A stretch of 64,000 nt of DNA from an uncultured Lachnospiraceae bacterium. Its GTDB lineage: Bacteria; Bacillota; Clostridia; Lachnospirales; Lachnospiraceae. Location: NCBI GenBank assembly GCA_947576945.1, contig CANPTH010000012.1:1-64000 (forward strand), given 5' to 3'. The notes under the pieces are model-generated. The model did not search any database. It worked only from the letters and a program-made list of their open reading frames with translations, and was not told the DNA's origin. A program made the position numbers and the translations under genes. Below, one piece after another: positions 10,958 through 34,341 of this stretch (its first letter is position 1; every line of letters begins with the position of its first letter).

Positions 10958-11004
10958 GACCTCCAAAAGGCAGATTTGACGACTGGCTTTTGGAGGTCAT
11001 TTTA
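10958..11004 (+). terminator. Bidirectional terminator after the exporter operon
   Basis: A perfect 12-bp stem, GACCTCCAAAAG with CTTTTGGAGGTC, is followed by ATTTTATT on the plus strand and by GTTTTCTTTC when read on the minus strand. It can thus stop the exporter operon and also catch leftward transcripts from the promoter at 11136-11164. Confidence 0.85.
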
Positions 11005-11028
11005 TTATGATTCATATATGAAAAAAAT

Positions 11029-11053
11029 TTCGTAGAATTCATTATTCTGCGAA
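11029..11053 (+). repeat. Recombination site, left (inverted pair)
   Basis: A 25-bp sequence made of two 10-bp inverted arms (TTCGTAGAAT and ATTCTGCGAA) around an asymmetric 5-bp centre, TCATT. An identical copy lies in the opposite orientation at 12559-12583. Arms plus a short asymmetric spacer is the plan of tyrosine-recombinase core sites. The left copy also has flanking A and T runs, so it could additionally act as a hairpin terminator. Confidence 0.82.
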
Positions 11054-11135
11054 ATTTTTGATTGAAAAATATTTTGAAAACCATAGGTTCAACGCACGAT
11101 AGACTGCTACTGTATCACTGCAGGTATCGTTTATC

Positions 11136-11164
11136 ATTATACTTTATATATCTTCTACTGTCAA
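11136..11164 (-). promoter_or_regulatory. Perfect sigma-A promoter inside the invertible segment
   Basis: Read on the minus strand: -35 TTGACA (11164-11159), a 17-base spacer and -10 TATAAT (11141-11136). Both hexamers match consensus exactly. It fires leftward, across the left recombination site into the bidirectional terminator, so it serves no gene in the present orientation. Inverting 11029-12583 would place it at about 12448-12476, reading rightward through the right site into the csrA-like and glycan genes. Confidence 0.85.
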
Positions 11165-11236
11165 ATCTTCTATTGCGGGTAATATAGATCAAAATTTCGA
11201 ATAGCAGGAAAACTTCCACAATTTATTTTAAAATTT

Positions 11237-11273
11237 TATATGGTCAGAAATATGGTCATAAATGTGGTCAGGG
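11237..11273 (+). repeat. Three short direct repeats before the integrase
   Basis: TGGTCA occurs three times at 12-13 base steps (within ATATGGTCAGAA, ATATGGTCATAA, ATGTGGTCAGGG) immediately upstream of the integrase ribosome site. An 11-base copy, TATATGGTCAG, recurs at the 3' end of the integrase gene (12396-12406). These could be arm-type binding or autoregulatory sites for the recombinase; this is inference. Confidence 0.4.
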
Positions 11274-11287
11274 AAAGGAGACAGAAT

Positions 11288-12421
11288 ATGCCAAAACATG
11301 GAACGAATATCCGCAAGCGCGCCGACGGGCGATGGGAAGGACGTTATAAGATTCTGCAAAGCGATCATTCCTGCAAGTACAGGTCTGTTTACGGGAGAAC
11401 CTGCAGGGAAGTGAAAGAGAAACTGGAACACAGTACAATGGAAGAGATAACATCTGTTGTTGAAAACAGGAAAGAGGAAGAAAACGTCAGGGAAAGAGCG
11501 GACACTTTCGCCACAGCAGCTGACAGATGGCTGGAAAGTATCAGAGAGACGAGAAAATATTCTACCTATATAAAGTACCGCGGCCTGTATGAAAGGCACA
11601 TCAGGGATGCACTCGGCGGCGTTCCGGTCTGTGCTGTTTCATATGGTCTTGTCAATGAAAAAATATTTCAAAGAGGCAGCCAGGCGCAGTATTCACAAAA
11701 TCTAAAGCACAGTGTGGTTTCGGTTATTAATCAGATCCTGCGGTATGCAGCGGAAAACTGCGGCTGTCCGGAGATACGGCTGACAAATAAATTTGTGCAT
11801 AGTAAAAGCAAAAAGATTGAGATCATCAATCATACAGAACAGGCGTTATTGGTGCGTTATCTGCATCGGGATATGGATGCGTCAAAGGCCGGGATTCTGC
11901 TCTGTATTTTTACGGGCCTGCGGTTAGGGGAAATCTGCTCTCTGCGATGGGAGGATGTTGATTTTGAACAGATGATTATTCATGTACGCAGAACCGTACA
12001 GCGCGTGGCGGTAGACGGCAGCACAAGCAGGACCACACTGATCGTCACGGAGCCGAAGAGTACCTTTTCCGTGCGGGAAATTCCGATCTCTGCGGGCACG
12101 GTACAGGTATTGAATGAGATCAGGCACGAGGAGGAATATGTGATCGGCGGCAGAGCGCCTTTGGATCCGAGGACTTATCAGAATCGTTTCAAACGTTATT
12201 TAAAGGCAAATGCCATCAAAGAATATAATTTTCACGCGCTGCGCCATACCTTCGCGACGAATTGCATCGATCACGATATGGATGTAAAAAGCCTCAGTGA
12301 AATCCTCGGACACGCCAATATACAGATCACGCTCAATAAGTATGTTCATCCGACCATGGATACGAAGCGCAGGCAGCTGGCCGCGCTGGACTCTGTATAT
12401 GGTCAGTTTTGTGGTAATTGA
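11288..12421 (+). CDS. Tyrosine recombinase (predicted DNA invertase)
   Basis: A 377-residue phage-integrase-type recombinase. Residues 1-60 form an arm-binding-like N-domain and about 75-165 a SAM-like core-binding domain. The catalytic domain has Arg in TGLRLGE (about 212), HALRH (about 316-320), the GH of LGHANIQ (about 341) and the nucleophile Tyr in NKYVHP (about 350), so it appears intact. The start at 11288 follows GGAAAGGAGACAGAAT. No excisionase, phage or conjugation gene is nearby. The gene is instead bracketed by two identical inverted 25-bp sites, so its likely job is to invert its own segment rather than to integrate an element. Confidence 0.9.
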   Translation: MPKHGTNIRKRADGRWEGRYKILQSDHSCKYRSVYGRTCREVKEKLEHSTMEEITSVVENRKEEENVRERADTFATAADRWLESIRETRKYSTYIKYRGLYERHIRDALGGVPVCAVSYGLVNEKIFQRGSQAQYSQNLKHSVVSVINQILRYAAENCGCPEIRLTNKFVHSKSKKIEIINHTEQALLVRYLHRDMDASKAGILLCIFTGLRLGEICSLRWEDVDFEQMIIHVRRTVQRVAVDGSTSRTTLIVTEPKSTFSVREIPISAGTVQVLNEIRHEEEYVIGGRAPLDPRTYQNRFKRYLKANAIKEYNFHALRHTFATNCIDHDMDVKSLSEILGHANIQITLNKYVHPTMDTKRRQLAALDSVYGQFCGN

Positions 12422-12558
12422 GATCGTGCCTGATCACAGCCAGGAGTTCCTGTCTAAAATGTCTGCGTAGGATTCGAGCGGATTATCAGACGAAGCGTGT
12501 CTGTGGAGAGGTGCATATGTTGGGAAGCGTGTCTGCTAAGAAGTGATCCGAGCAGCAG

Positions 12559-12583
12559 TTCGCAGAATAATGAATTCTACGAA
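12559..12583 (-). repeat. Recombination site, right (inverted pair)
   Basis: Exact reverse complement of the 25-bp site at 11029-11053: arms TTCGCAGAAT and ATTCTACGAA around AATGA. Identity stops sharply at both edges, which fits a recombination site rather than a shared long repeat. It lies 67 bases before the csrA-like start, so a promoter brought in by inversion would transcribe that gene with a leader of roughly 165 bases. Confidence 0.82.
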
Positions 12584-12649: not shown

Positions 12650-12853
12650 ATGTTGGAGTTGACAGTAACTACGGGAATGGAGCTGCAGATCGGGGATGAT
12701 GTAAAGATTGTCTTCAAGGGCAGCAATGCGCCGGGCCGCATGAGGATCGGGGTGGAAGCGCCGAAGGAAAAAAGGATCGAGAGAGTAGAGTCTTTGGTGA
12801 AAAAAGCGAAGCCGAAGATTGTCATCGTGAACCAGTGCGGGCAGAGAAGCTGA
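12650..12853 (+). CDS. CsrA-like RNA-binding regulator (divergent)
   Basis: A 67-residue protein. Residues 1-49 align by eye with CsrA: MLELT at the start, IGDDV at 14-18, RIGVEAPKE at 32-40 and Arg at 45. CsrA dimers bind GGA motifs in mRNA leaders and control translation. Here the usual RNA-contacting pair Arg6-Arg7 reads Val-Thr, and about 18 extra residues follow the core, so RNA recognition may differ. The ATG at 12650 follows GGGAAGGACAAGT. It is the first gene after the invertible segment and so heads the glycan operon, an unusual place: Firmicute csrA is usually near flagellar genes. Confidence 0.65.
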   Translation: MLELTVTTGMELQIGDDVKIVFKGSNAPGRMRIGVEAPKEKRIERVESLVKKAKPKIVIVNQCGQRS

Positions 12854-12925: not shown

Positions 12926-15460
12926 ATGAGAAAAGCACAGAAGCGTGAGACGCTGGAATGCATTTCCAGTCTGCACCAGGCGCATGAAGAGATCAGAGCT
13001 GCATTGCGGCAGAAAGAATACGAGACGGCACGGAATATGCTCTGCGAATGTCAGGAATTTGCCACGATTCTCGGAGAAAGCATCGAGAAGGCAGAGGGGG
13101 AAGGCCATAGCACGATAGCGCATATGGAGCGTTACTGCGAGACCTTATTTCATGTATTCGAAGAGATCGGCGCAGGGGGAAGCAGTGAACATAAATGGTA
13201 TAAAAACCTGCGAAAACAGCTTCTGGCTGTGGAAAACAGTGTAAAATATGAAATTTCCATCAAAAAAGAAGTTGTGTTTCTTCCATATAAAGTGTCCATG
13301 TGGGACAGTCTGGAAAGTGTCTATCTGGCAGCGAAGGAAGATCCGTCCTGCGACGCATACTGTGTGCCGATTCCTTATTATGACCTGATGGCCGATCACA
13401 GTTTTGGCAGAATGCATTGTGAGACGGCAGGGTATCCTGAAAATGTTGAGATAACTGACTGGCGGGAATATGACGTGGAAGAGAGAAAGCCGGATGTGAT
13501 CTATATCCACAATCCTTATGACGGCGGCAACCTGGTCACCAGCGTACATCCGCGGTTCTATGCGTCGCATTTAAAGAAATTTACGGATCTCCTGGTCTAT
13601 ATTCCCTACTATAGCACAGCGGGCGGGATGTGTGAGGCGCAAAGCCTGTGTCCGGCCTATCTTTATGCGGATTATATTGTGATACAGTCGCCGGCGTTTC
13701 GGGCGTATTTTGACCGGAATCTGTCGGACCGGAAATTCCTGCCCCTGGGTTCGCCAAAGTTTGACAGAGTGATGGAACGGTGCAAGAATCCGCCCGCGCC
13801 GCCGGCAGTGTGGCTTTCGAAGCTGACCGGGAAAGACGGCGGCCGCAGGAGGGTGTTTTTCTATAATACGAGTATTAACGGCATGCTTGCCGATACGGAG
13901 CATTTCCTGCAAAAGATGGAGTATGTATTTACCTGCTTCGAGGGGCGGGAAGATGTCTGCCTTTTGTGGCGCCCCCATCCGTTGCTGGAGACCACGTTTG
14001 CTTCCATGCGGCCGCAGTATGGCCGCATGTATCAGGAGCTGAAAACGCGCTTTTTGGAAAAGGGGATCGGCATTTTGGATACCACGCCCGACATTGCCGC
14101 CTCGATCGCTTTGAGCGATGCGTATATCGGAGACATGGGAACCAGTGTCACGTCGCTGTTCGGGGTGGCGGGGAAGCCGCTGTTTATTCTCGATCAAAAG
14201 ATGCTCCTTCGACCGGGGAAGGACGGCTGGCGGGAAGTGGCAAAGGCCGGCTTTGAATTTCAGGAACAGGACCGGTTTACCATCCTGCAGGGCAATAAAC
14301 TGTATCGTTCCGGGCCGGGACAGTATGATTATCACTATGACTGCGATCTGTCGGACCAGCGGCGCGGCGGGATGTATGCGGTGGTGTTGGAGATAGCGGG
14401 CACGAAATATGCCTGTCCTGCCAGAGCGCAGCATATTCTTGTAATCGGGGACAGGGGTGTGCAAAGGAAAATAGAGTTGCAGCGGGAGAAGCTGGACGGC
14501 AAGGCGTTTACTTATGCATGGAAGTATAAGCAATTTATCGTATTGCAGCCGTTATGTTACCCGGCTGTGGTGCGTTACGATACGGTCACCGGAGCGTGTA
14601 CCTGTTTCCGGGAACAGATTGAGGTGTTTACACAGGAGAGAGACGGGCGCAGGATCACAGGCGGGGGACATATCTTCCGGGGCACGCTTTATCTGGCTTC
14701 TCCTGTGGATAATAAGGTTTGGACATTGGAGATTGAGAGCGGTGCGGTGCAGGTGATTGAGATACCCGTCGAGAGTGGAAGCAGACGAGGCTGTAATGAA
14801 CTCGTTGCCTGCCAGGATGCGTTGTGGATGCTTCCCTATACAGGAGAGGGAATCGTGTGCTGGAAACCGCAGACAGGAGAGGTGAAGGAGTATACGGGAT
14901 TTCCTGCGGACTTGACCTGCACTGATCCGGACAGCGGGAGCAGATGTGAGGAACTGCCGTTTAGCACGATGGCATTTTACGACGACTGTCTGTACCTTGC
15001 GCCGCAGCAGGCTGACCGGTATCTTCGTCTTGTGCTTTCGACAGGGGAGTTTGAGCAGTGGAATCCTCCCGTTGCAGACAGGGCCGGGCGGAATGTCTTT
15101 TTCCCGTGGTGGAAGCCAGAAGAGACCGGCGGATGGCTTAAGATCTACGCCAATGCTGAGCGGCGGTTATACAACGTCAATATGAACACAGACGAATGGG
15201 AAGAGATTGAGATTAAATTTGATAAAGAAGAACTGGAAGCCCATGAAGCGGGATTTGGCGCGTGGTCGGAGACGCTGGGATATGCCTGCATGGAAAGTGT
15301 CATAAACTCTCTGGACAGATTTCTTGACGGCGTGACGGCGGGCAGTCCTTTTGATAAGGAAAAACAGCTTGCCGCATACAGGGAACTGGCTGTCAACAGC
15401 GACGGGAGCTGCGGCCAGAAGATCCATGAATATATTATGGCCCGGGATACCCTCAGTTGA
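12926..15460 (+). CDS. CDP-glycerol glycerophosphotransferase-like protein with C-terminal propeller-like domain
   Basis: An 844-residue protein. I use the ATG at 12926 behind AGGAAAGGA; a GTG at 12890 is in frame but poorly supported. Residues 1-105 look helical. Residues about 113-440 resemble the CDP-glycerol glycerophosphotransferase (TagB/TagF) GT-B fold, with VFLPYKVSMWDSLESV at its start, LPLGSPKFDRV, WRPHP and a late GDMGTSVTS segment. The C-terminal ~400 residues contain repeated strand and Trp/Gly patterns suggesting a beta-propeller. The family transfers glycerol-phosphate or related units from CDP-activated donors to a surface polymer. The real donor is not evident. Confidence 0.75.
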   Translation: MRKAQKRETLECISSLHQAHEEIRAALRQKEYETARNMLCECQEFATILGESIEKAEGEGHSTIAHMERYCETLFHVFEEIGAGGSSEHKWYKNLRKQLLAVENSVKYEISIKKEVVFLPYKVSMWDSLESVYLAAKEDPSCDAYCVPIPYYDLMADHSFGRMHCETAGYPENVEITDWREYDVEERKPDVIYIHNPYDGGNLVTSVHPRFYASHLKKFTDLLVYIPYYSTAGGMCEAQSLCPAYLYADYIVIQSPAFRAYFDRNLSDRKFLPLGSPKFDRVMERCKNPPAPPAVWLSKLTGKDGGRRRVFFYNTSINGMLADTEHFLQKMEYVFTCFEGREDVCLLWRPHPLLETTFASMRPQYGRMYQELKTRFLEKGIGILDTTPDIAASIALSDAYIGDMGTSVTSLFGVAGKPLFILDQKMLLRPGKDGWREVAKAGFEFQEQDRFTILQGNKLYRSGPGQYDYHYDCDLSDQRRGGMYAVVLEIAGTKYACPARAQHILVIGDRGVQRKIELQREKLDGKAFTYAWKYKQFIVLQPLCYPAVVRYDTVTGACTCFREQIEVFTQERDGRRITGGGHIFRGTLYLASPVDNKVWTLEIESGAVQVIEIPVESGSRRGCNELVACQDALWMLPYTGEGIVCWKPQTGEVKEYTGFPADLTCTDPDSGSRCEELPFSTMAFYDDCLYLAPQQADRYLRLVLSTGEFEQWNPPVADRAGRNVFFPWWKPEETGGWLKIYANAERRLYNVNMNTDEWEEIEIKFDKEELEAHEAGFGAWSETLGYACMESVINSLDRFLDGVTAGSPFDKEKQLAAYRELAVNSDGSCGQKIHEYIMARDTLS

Positions 15461-32643: not shown

Positions 32644-34341
32644 ATGCGCTATAAACCACTGCCCATAGGGGTTGACGATTTTAAGAAACTGATCGAGCAT
32701 GGATATTATTATGTTGATAAGACGGCCTTTATTCGGGATTTGATCGACAGGAAAGGGGAGGTCAATCTTTTCACACGTCCCAGACGCTTTGGTAAGACAT
32801 TGAATATGAGTATGCTGCGGTATTTTCTTGAAGACATGCATACGATAAAAGGCGAACCCATGGATAACAGGGGACTTTTTGAAGGCCTGAACATCATGCA
32901 GGCGGGGGAAAGCTATCTGTCGCATATGGGAGCGTATCCGGTGATCACACTGACGCTGAAAGCAGGCAGGCAGTCTACCTTCGCGAGTGCATACAGACAG
33001 ATCACCATGCAGATCGGCATGGAGTTTGAACGGCACAGCTATGTGCTGGATTCGGATCTGCCGGATGAGATGAAGGAGCGGTATAAGAGTATTCTGAGCG
33101 GCCATGCGGATATGGATATTTTTAAAGGTTCGCTGCAGTTTCTTTCACACTGTCTTTCTTACTATTATGGAAAAAGAGCTGTCCTGCTGATCGACGAATA
33201 TGATGTGCCGTTGGAAAATGCTTTTCTGTGTGGATTTTATGACGAGATGATTGATTTTATCCGGGCGCTTTTTGAGACTGTGCTGAAAACAAATGCCGGT
33301 CTGGAGTTTGCAGTCATTTCAGGCTGTCTCAGGATCAGCAAGGAGAGTATTTTTACCGGGTTGAATAATTTAGAAGTTATTTCGATTTTAAATGACAGCT
33401 ATCATGAATACTTTGGATTTACAGACTGCGAAGTCAGGAAACTGTGTGATGATTTTGCTCTTTCTGAAAAATACGAGACGGTGAAAGCGTGGTACAACGG
33501 ATATCTGTTCGGAAATACAAATGTCTACAATCCGTGGAGTGTGGTCAGATATATTAAGGATTTACAGGCGAACGAAAACTGTTATCCGGTTGCGTACTGG
33601 GCCAACACTTCATCAAACAGTATTGTGCGGGAGCTGATCGAGTTGGCGGATGAAAGCGTAAAGGCGGAGATTGAACAGCTGATCGACGGCGGTGTGATTG
33701 AGAAGCCCGTTCATGAAGATATTACCTATGCTGAGGTGTATGAAAGCATGGATAATCTGTGGAATTTCATGTTCTTCACAGGTTATTTCCGGAAGGTCAG
33801 TGAGCGGATCTGTGAAAATGACATCCGGTATCTGACATTTCGGATTCCTAACAGGGAAGTGCGCTATATTTTCTATACCAAGGTGAGTGCATGGTTTCAG
33901 ACGAAAATAAAGCAGCGTGATATGAGCAGGCTTCACAACGCCTTGCTACAAAAGGATGTGGAAACATTTGAAGCAGAGCTGAATGATATTATGCTGGAGA
34001 CCATCAGTTCCATGGATGAGCATGAGAATTACTATCATGGACTGGTCGCCGGTCTGCTCACCGGGATCAAAGGGTATATCACCAAGTCCAATCGGGAGTC
34101 CGGCAAGGGCAGATGTGATCTTTTCGTGAAACCGGTATCGAGACGGAAGGAGGCTTTTATCATAGAATTTAAAGTGACAAAGAAGCTGGGCGAACTGGAG
34201 GCAAAGGCGGATGAAGCGCTGGAGCAGATCGAGGAGCGGCATTATGAAAAGGAGCTGCTCGATGATAACTACAGTGTGATCAGCCGATACGGTATTGCGT
34301 TTTGTGGCAAGGAATGTATGGTCAGGCTGGCGGCGCAGTAA
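32644..34341 (+). CDS. AAA-ATPase-like / PD-(D/E)XK family protein
   Basis: A 565-residue protein of the AAA-ATPase_like plus PDDEXK_9 type (old name DUF1703). The N-terminus LPIGVDDFKKLIEHGYYYVDKT and the P-loop RPRRFGKT (about residues 43-50) are hallmarks. LLIDEYDVP (about 182-190) is the Walker B, and the C-terminal nuclease-like core has GRCDLF and IIEFKV (E-x-K, near residue 498). The family is greatly expanded in Clostridia and Bacteroidetes with no settled function. Inverted repeats on both sides and its lack of any glycan role suggest it is a passenger inserted in the glycan run. The ribosome site is GAGAAGAGGAT. Confidence 0.92.
   Translation: MRYKPLPIGVDDFKKLIEHGYYYVDKTAFIRDLIDRKGEVNLFTRPRRFGKTLNMSMLRYFLEDMHTIKGEPMDNRGLFEGLNIMQAGESYLSHMGAYPVITLTLKAGRQSTFASAYRQITMQIGMEFERHSYVLDSDLPDEMKERYKSILSGHADMDIFKGSLQFLSHCLSYYYGKRAVLLIDEYDVPLENAFLCGFYDEMIDFIRALFETVLKTNAGLEFAVISGCLRISKESIFTGLNNLEVISILNDSYHEYFGFTDCEVRKLCDDFALSEKYETVKAWYNGYLFGNTNVYNPWSVVRYIKDLQANENCYPVAYWANTSSNSIVRELIELADESVKAEIEQLIDGGVIEKPVHEDITYAEVYESMDNLWNFMFFTGYFRKVSERICENDIRYLTFRIPNREVRYIFYTKVSAWFQTKIKQRDMSRLHNALLQKDVETFEAELNDIMLETISSMDEHENYYHGLVAGLLTGIKGYITKSNRESGKGRCDLFVKPVSRRKEAFIIEFKVTKKLGELEAKADEALEQIEERHYEKELLDDNYSVISRYGIAFCGKECMVRLAAQ

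Follow-up and report, generated by a model that had tools for sequence, protein, structure and literature searches.

Organisation of the locus

The window considered here, a 64,000-nucleotide stretch of DNA from an uncultured Lachnospiraceae bacterium, contains at 11029-12583 a segment bounded by two sites in inverted orientation, the left one on the plus strand at 11029-11053 and the right one on the minus strand at 12559-12583, both with the centre TCATT. The sites, of 25 nt each with 1505 nt between them, are 100% complementary, and a perfect 25-bp inverted pair is expected about 7e-9 times per 4 kb of random equal-base sequence. When the site pattern was sought with up to 2 mismatches in the 4.37-Mb genome assembly (94% complete), just these two places were found, and the reversed pattern, used as a control, gave 0 matches in the same assembly. 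Within the segment lies a gene for a tyrosine recombinase of 377 aa (11288-12421, plus strand; Pfam Phage_integrase and Phage_int_SAM_3), in which alignment to solved integrases finds R212, K257, H316, R319, H342 and Y352, which we take to be the six expected catalytic residues; the nearest solved chains are 6en0 and 6emy, named Int protein. The original prediction of two identical inverted 25-bp sites flanking a complete tyrosine recombinase is thus borne out by the complementarity and the Pfam domains, as is the site layout that it described, with 10-bp arms around a 5-bp centre and identity ending abruptly at the edges, the arms having one mismatch. Just within the segment, GGTCA repeats with 12-bp spacing (11237-11271, plus strand), returned by a repeat search, are possible arm-type binding sites for the recombinase; a second, GGTCA-like pair from the same search lies where the recombinase gene ends (12396-12418, plus strand, within its 3' part), and there coding alone may account for the repeat.

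Upstream of the recombinase gene is a consensus promoter, TTGACA-17-TATAAT, pointing left (11136-11164, minus strand). As had been predicted, it fits the consensus exactly and in the present orientation has no readable gene ahead of it; nowhere else in the window, on either strand, is there a 12/12 match. Inversion in silico moves it to 12448-12476 on the plus strand, where transcription is estimated to start at 12483 and a csrA-like gene would have a leader of 167 nt, in agreement with the earlier proposal that inversion would turn it toward that gene. The same proposal saw no convincing forward promoter between the integrase and csrA, and our scan gives the same picture: between 12400 and csrA no forward promoter of at least 10/12 was found, the top score being 9/12 at 12433-12460.

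Outside the segment, on the side that the promoter now faces, a terminator-like hairpin at 10958-11004 folds at -27.0 kcal/mol on the minus strand and -25.9 kcal/mol on the plus strand, and by this folding it would halt transcription from the outward promoter now, and from an ABC gene reading from the opposite side. A further hairpin of 16 bp surrounds the left site itself (11023-11059, minus strand; -11.7 kcal/mol) and is followed on that strand by a run of T. It is possibly a second terminator that inversion would dismantle: the junction formed by flipping has a shorter site hairpin and lacks the T run, and the stretch folds at -7.3. A simple terminator scan, which admits only loops of 3-8 and requires 3 G-C pairs, reported neither hairpin; its rule being narrow, terminator activity is here deduced from the folding rather than from the scan. 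Of the bidirectional terminator originally proposed at 10958-11004, then, the strong hairpin on both strands stands, whereas the terminator scan does not list it and its activity is deduced. The scan likewise listed no terminator between the integrase and csrA, so that the OFF state may leak. A search of Rfam at the gathering score gave no match in the window or in three relatives.

The first gene after the right site is the csrA-like one (12650-12853, plus strand; 67 aa), recognised by Pfam with 35.7 bits against a cut-off of 27; against NCBIfam CsrA it scores 26.8 where the cut-off is 73, and it is therefore divergent. It is followed by a large gene (12935-15460, plus strand), the first of the glycan run and used as a marker in relatives, which has no Pfam match, weak matches to Glyphos_transf being found in two relatives. 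The remaining co-directional run (15538-44058, plus strand) includes by Pfam a cytidylyltransferase, a CDP-glycerol transferase, glycosyltransferases, an asparagine synthase and others. This run is interrupted by gaps of 435 bp and 325 bp, and amid it at 32644-34341 lies an AAA-ATPase-like / PDDEXK_9 gene, possibly an insertion, which may interrupt the transcript. Given the gaps and this gene, the run to 44058 may comprise more than one transcript. In the original view inversion would turn the promoter toward the glycan run of about 31 kb; its control may not extend over all 31 kb.

A family of elements with matched site centres

Relatives of the recombinase were found at 39 loci in a scan of genome contigs, in 21 of 77 genomes at the level of the genus (E <= 1e-90) and in 54 of 397 genomes of a family-level sample (E <= 1e-60), the window's own genome being included in both counts. 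Four relatives occur in IMG/VR, with a top identity of 39%, and 1644 in phage records, all below 60% identity, with a maximum of 38% among the best 10 of the 1644; no close relative is thus phage-borne in IMG/VR or the phage records searched. For comparison we tested 86 loci, the window included, from which 12 were removed as copies, judged on the integrase's first 300 nt, leaving 74 non-redundant elements. Left out of the 86 were L051-L062 (remote or partial), L095 (contig edge), loci that duplicate others (such as L058, L063-L065, L069, L070, L074, L075 and L156-L174) and 28 weaker matches among the family-level genomes. The search for sites extended up to 1250 bp to the left and up to 250 bp to the right, some loci having about 1.5 kb of flank only, and at most 3 mismatches in the 16 arm positions were accepted per site. 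Both sites were found in 59 of the 74 elements, one or both being missing within the searched stretch in the other 15. At L029, L030, L041 and L043 the searched stretch around the family recombinase holds no recognisable site, left or right; the L029 recombinase sits between BipA-type and SSB-type genes.

The sites were picked by their arms alone, the centre being ignored so as to avoid bias. Nevertheless, the 5-bp centre is identical inside 58 of the 59 pairs, and the single exception, L038, has a left site mispicked under the arms-only rule, which was set by hand for the counts of orientation, promoter, tree, flank T run and far-side neighbour. This identity within pairs contrasts with the diversity between elements, for there are 46 distinct left centres across the 59, centres agree in only 36 of 3422 comparisons of different elements, and in 10,000 permutations the highest number of matched pairs was 8. 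Matched centres are the outcome to be expected if, in each element, strands are exchanged between its two sites. Since the centres must match, each switch would be largely privately addressed, and genomes with several copies mostly have differing centres: in genome G172 all four differ (L121-L124), and G425 has three different centres among four copies (L106-L109). In the latter genome L108 and L109 are two copies with the same centre, so that recombination between these loci might be possible.

The length of the segment varies. In L033 (3886-6196) and L042 (3914-6204) the sites are about 2.25 kb apart and a second gene, of the Uma2 type in L033, stands between promoter and site. At the other extreme, L190 (5289-5728) is a mini-switch with sites 390 bp apart; judged by eye, it has an outward promoter and, of a recombinase gene, only the two ends, and it may rely on a further copy elsewhere in its genome.

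Conservation of an outward promoter

In 26 of the 59 elements the interval from the left site to the start of the recombinase gene contains an exact TTGACA/TATAAT promoter facing outward, and in 37 one of at least 11/12, against 1 inward match of at least 11/12 and 0 exact inward matches. Shuffled sequences, which preserved base composition and not dinucleotides, gave exact matches in 1 of 5900 and matches of at least 11/12 in 58 of 5900. A distance of 28 to 87 bp separates the best outward match from the site in 53 of the 59; in L033 and L042, because of the extra gene that intervenes, it exceeds 900 bp. The 22 elements with no outward promoter of 11/12 include the csrA loci L045-L047, whose outward scores are 9, 9 and 10 with a spacer of 18.

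This polarity bears on the sense in which the switch is to be read. The integrase and csrA are co-directional, with 228 bp between them and no listed terminator, and one could suppose that the present orientation is the ON state, the integrase transcript continuing into csrA and the glycan genes. We regard this as very improbable, given that exact promoters face outward in 26 of 59 elements and inward in none, that the best inward score in the window element is 8.5, and that on such a reading the perfect outward promoter of the window would still face no gene to read. A second conception, that the element is a mobile integrase cassette whose ends are inverted by accident and which has no regulatory role, would be in keeping with the integrase-like character of the recombinase (6en0, 6emy), with the GGTCA repeats, which look like arm sites, and with the position of some members beside ordinary genes (helicase-type in L039, an FHA domain in L048). 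However, inverted sites lead to inversion, not to excision, and neither the retention of an outward promoter of at least 11/12 in 37 of 59 elements nor the occurrence of the same kinds of marker genes on one side in 32 of 59 is what such a cassette would lead one to expect, so that we give it the same very low credence.

Orientation relative to the putative target operon

The markers sought on both flanks were solely relatives of the csrA, TnpB-like, glycan and flagellin genes. They occur on one side only in 32 of the 59 elements and on both sides in 0, leaving 27 undecided. In 24 of the 32 the orientation is that of the window, with the promoter directed away from the operon (OFF), and in 8 the segment is reversed and its promoter points toward the operon (ON). 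Related genomes had been proposed as the place to look for the other orientation, and both states do occur across species in the family, whereas the csrA-glycan type (the window and L024-L027) is OFF in 5 of 5. The nearest relatives, L024 and L025, have sites, promoter, csrA and glycan genes in the window's order. All 8 ON loci are of the TnpB-like type; in one of them, L182, the recombinase and TnpB-like matches are each split in two, as if frameshifted. In a quickly built tree of the recombinases from the 32 decided loci, where the L182 row is partly out of frame and its branch length untrustworthy, the orientation label needs 8 changes, at least 7 of them forced by the starred branches. Shuffled labels need a mean of 7.3, about equal to the 8 observed, and hence orientation is not inherited in clusters.

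The uniform state of the csrA-glycan loci raises the question of whether the element once flipped and is now a relic locked OFF in this lineage, for which the five identical orientations and the lack of any flipped copy for the species, among one genome per species, could be adduced. Yet the sites are perfect and the enzyme complete, orientation often changes on the tree, and five OFF loci in a row would arise with a chance estimated at about 0.2 at the proportion seen among the remaining decided loci (19 of 27 OFF); a locked relic is accordingly improbable, though less so than the readings weighed above.

On the far side of the switch, the neighbouring gene converges on it in 22 of the 32 decided loci, the window included, and reads away in 10, which argues that the common role is the ON/OFF control of one operon. 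The 10 neighbours that read away could be driven when the operon is OFF, and so would fit a promoter alternating between left and right neighbours, but with convergence in the other 22 and a strong hairpin intervening in the window, such a two-way selector is the least credible of the alternatives. A T run (at least 7 T in the 12 nt past the far site) is present in 8 of 8 csrA loci, that is, the five csrA-glycan loci and L045-L047. As a general rule the idea of the far-side site as a terminator was rejected, the mean number of T being 5.1 against 3.9 on the near side over the 32 loci, a difference short of significance (Wilcoxon p 0.058).

Operons beside the switch and their putative regulators

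Among the 32 decided loci a csrA-like gene is found in 8 and a TnpB-like gene in 24, and the two were never found together beside any of the 32. The csrA-like gene precedes glycan genes in the window and L024-L027 and flagellin in L045 and L046, while L047 has csrA alone as a marker, its contig ending soon after. The csrA-like genes of L045 (6590-7108; 172 aa) and L046 (6457-6966; 169 aa) are placed between a switch of the same kind and the flagellin gene. In L181 a glycan gene precedes the TnpB-like gene.

The TnpB-like proteins appear to be nuclease-dead: in 20 aligned proteins (where the L033 and L178 rows are one gene) none retains a catalytic D/E at any of the three RuvC positions, the reference being three TnpB-type proteins with the first acidic residue in 3/3, the second in 2/3 and the third in 2/3. 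Such genes stand beside the switch and a glycan operon at L033 (6197-7534), L176 (4476-5867, minus strand), L180 (6234-7562) and L184 (7410-8741), and further at L037, L038, L044, L067, L068, L071, L073, L118, L119, L179, L181, L185, L189, L190 and L194. In eight aligned relatives the gene is followed by a conserved stretch (L071, 7200-7356; L176, 4245-4410, minus strand; L067, 8020-8193; and five more alignment rows), whose conservation, by eye, drops sharply at the 3' end, as that of a guide RNA would. In this alignment, 7 of 17 predicted pairs show changes on both sides, which mostly separate two groups of sequences (5 versus 3), and 5 of the 17 are broken in one or two sequences. The combination of a dead TnpB and this 3' stretch resembles TldR and its guide. 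A search of genome G040 with its putative guide, at up to 3 mismatches, returned the guide itself alone, and in G043 the guide and one place with 3 mismatches, about 0.2 such places being expected by chance on our estimate. The guided_TnpB model matches two TnpB-like proteins from the relatives, and nothing in the window genome at E <= 0.001.

By comparison of these sequences the switch belongs to a widespread Lachnospiraceae family, whose operons open with a csrA-like gene or, in the majority of relatives, carry a nuclease-dead TnpB. Many related glycan loci are without such a switch: relatives of the first glycan gene occur in 59 of the 77 genus genomes (E <= 1e-60), against 21 of 77 for the recombinase (E <= 1e-90). 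The window genome contains 12 matches to flagellin and, besides the gene next to the switch, two to csrA; at two other glycan loci of this genome, L186 and L187, neither a recombinase nor a csrA-like or TnpB-like gene nor a site pair was found.

A probable self-encoded promoter switch

With a probability that we put at roughly 0.85, the segment 11029-12583 is an invertible promoter acting as a phase switch with its own tyrosine recombinase, and now OFF. This reading, already that of the original prediction, draws its support from the matched centres, the conserved outward promoter and the occurrence of both orientations across species. In the strain of the window the recombinase would pair the two inverted sites and exchange strands within the 5-bp centre, such that the 1.55-kb segment would flip in place, carrying with it the single outward promoter upstream of the enzyme gene. 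In the OFF state this promoter would fire to the left, its transcript meeting the 16-bp hairpin and T run formed partly by the left site, and then the hairpin at 10958-11004. Once flipped, the promoter would start a transcript about 167 nt upstream of csrA, covering this gene together with at least the first block of glycan genes. Orientation would in this way set the transcription of the target ON or OFF, and we infer a trans action of the csrA-like product on other, alternative surface genes.

A wider proposal, which we advance tentatively and with more doubt than confidence, is that throughout the Lachnospiraceae surface operons are made bistable by such switches, every one privately addressed through a recombinase and a centre of its own, each operon having near its start a silencer acting in trans, either a csrA-like regulator of translation or a dead TnpB with a guide RNA, so that one coat, when ON, would silence the other glycans or flagellins. 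If these readings are right, one compact and recognisable element would explain phase-variable surface glycans, and probably some flagellins, in many gut commensals, the state of the switch could be read straight from sequence, and DNA inversion would be linked to RNA-guided or RNA-binding control. The matched, fast-changing centres suggest how multiple copies in a genome avoid cross-talk, and a regulator that recurs close to the operon's beginning would offer a testable rule for choosing one coat at a time.

Comparison with known systems

Invertible promoters before surface genes are known from the polysaccharide promoters of the Mpi/Tsr systems in Bacteroides and from the RecV system of C. 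difficile, Tsr and RecV being tyrosine recombinases. The recombinases of these systems lie outside the invertible segment and may serve several sites, unlike that of the window, which lies within it. In this respect the closer parallel is the Hin/fljBA system of Salmonella, in which a serine recombinase that uses an enhancer, encoded inside its invertible segment alongside one outward promoter, controls an operon of antigen and regulator. The window likewise has its recombinase gene inside the segment, one outward promoter and an operon with a regulator, and departs from Hin/fljBA in its tyrosine recombinase, its variable 5-bp centre and its glycan genes.

Our literature search found no publication joining an invertible promoter, Lachnospiraceae and a tyrosine recombinase, nor, by title and opening of the abstract among the matches listed, one on TnpB-like genes in glycan operons. 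The arrangement had at the outset seemed new, a claim that has to be narrowed, since the family is widespread and both tyrosine-recombinase invertons of Clostridia (PMC11892184) and csrA-tldR-hin loci (PMC13418256) are in print; judged from the portions of these two papers available to us, what appears new is the self-encoded glycan variant. In the former work, inverton group 139 of the hCom2 community, called from reads and mostly from Clostridia, goes with tyrosine invertase group 35, and it resembles the present family as a Clostridia inverton with a nearby tyrosine-type recombinase (PMC11892184). The two could be one family; the part of the account of group 139 accessible to us makes no mention of matched variable centres or of a csrA-like or dead-TnpB gene (PMC11892184).

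The csrA-tldR flagellin loci, as far as the available portion of that report describes them, have an upstream hin serine invertase, a segment of about 120 bp and a FliA promoter, the TldR guides targeting alternative flagellin genes and CsrA binding the flagellin leader (PMC13418256). Like these loci of gut commensals, the present family places a switch before a csrA-like or nuclease-dead TnpB gene that would govern a surface structure, but it differs from them, on that description, in its self-encoded tyrosine recombinase, its housekeeping-type consensus promoter and its glycan operons (PMC13418256). In the window the csrA-like gene after the switch is present and tldR is absent, as judged by the guided_TnpB model in the window genome, and it is a tyrosine recombinase, not a serine invertase of the hin type, that lies immediately 5' of csrA.
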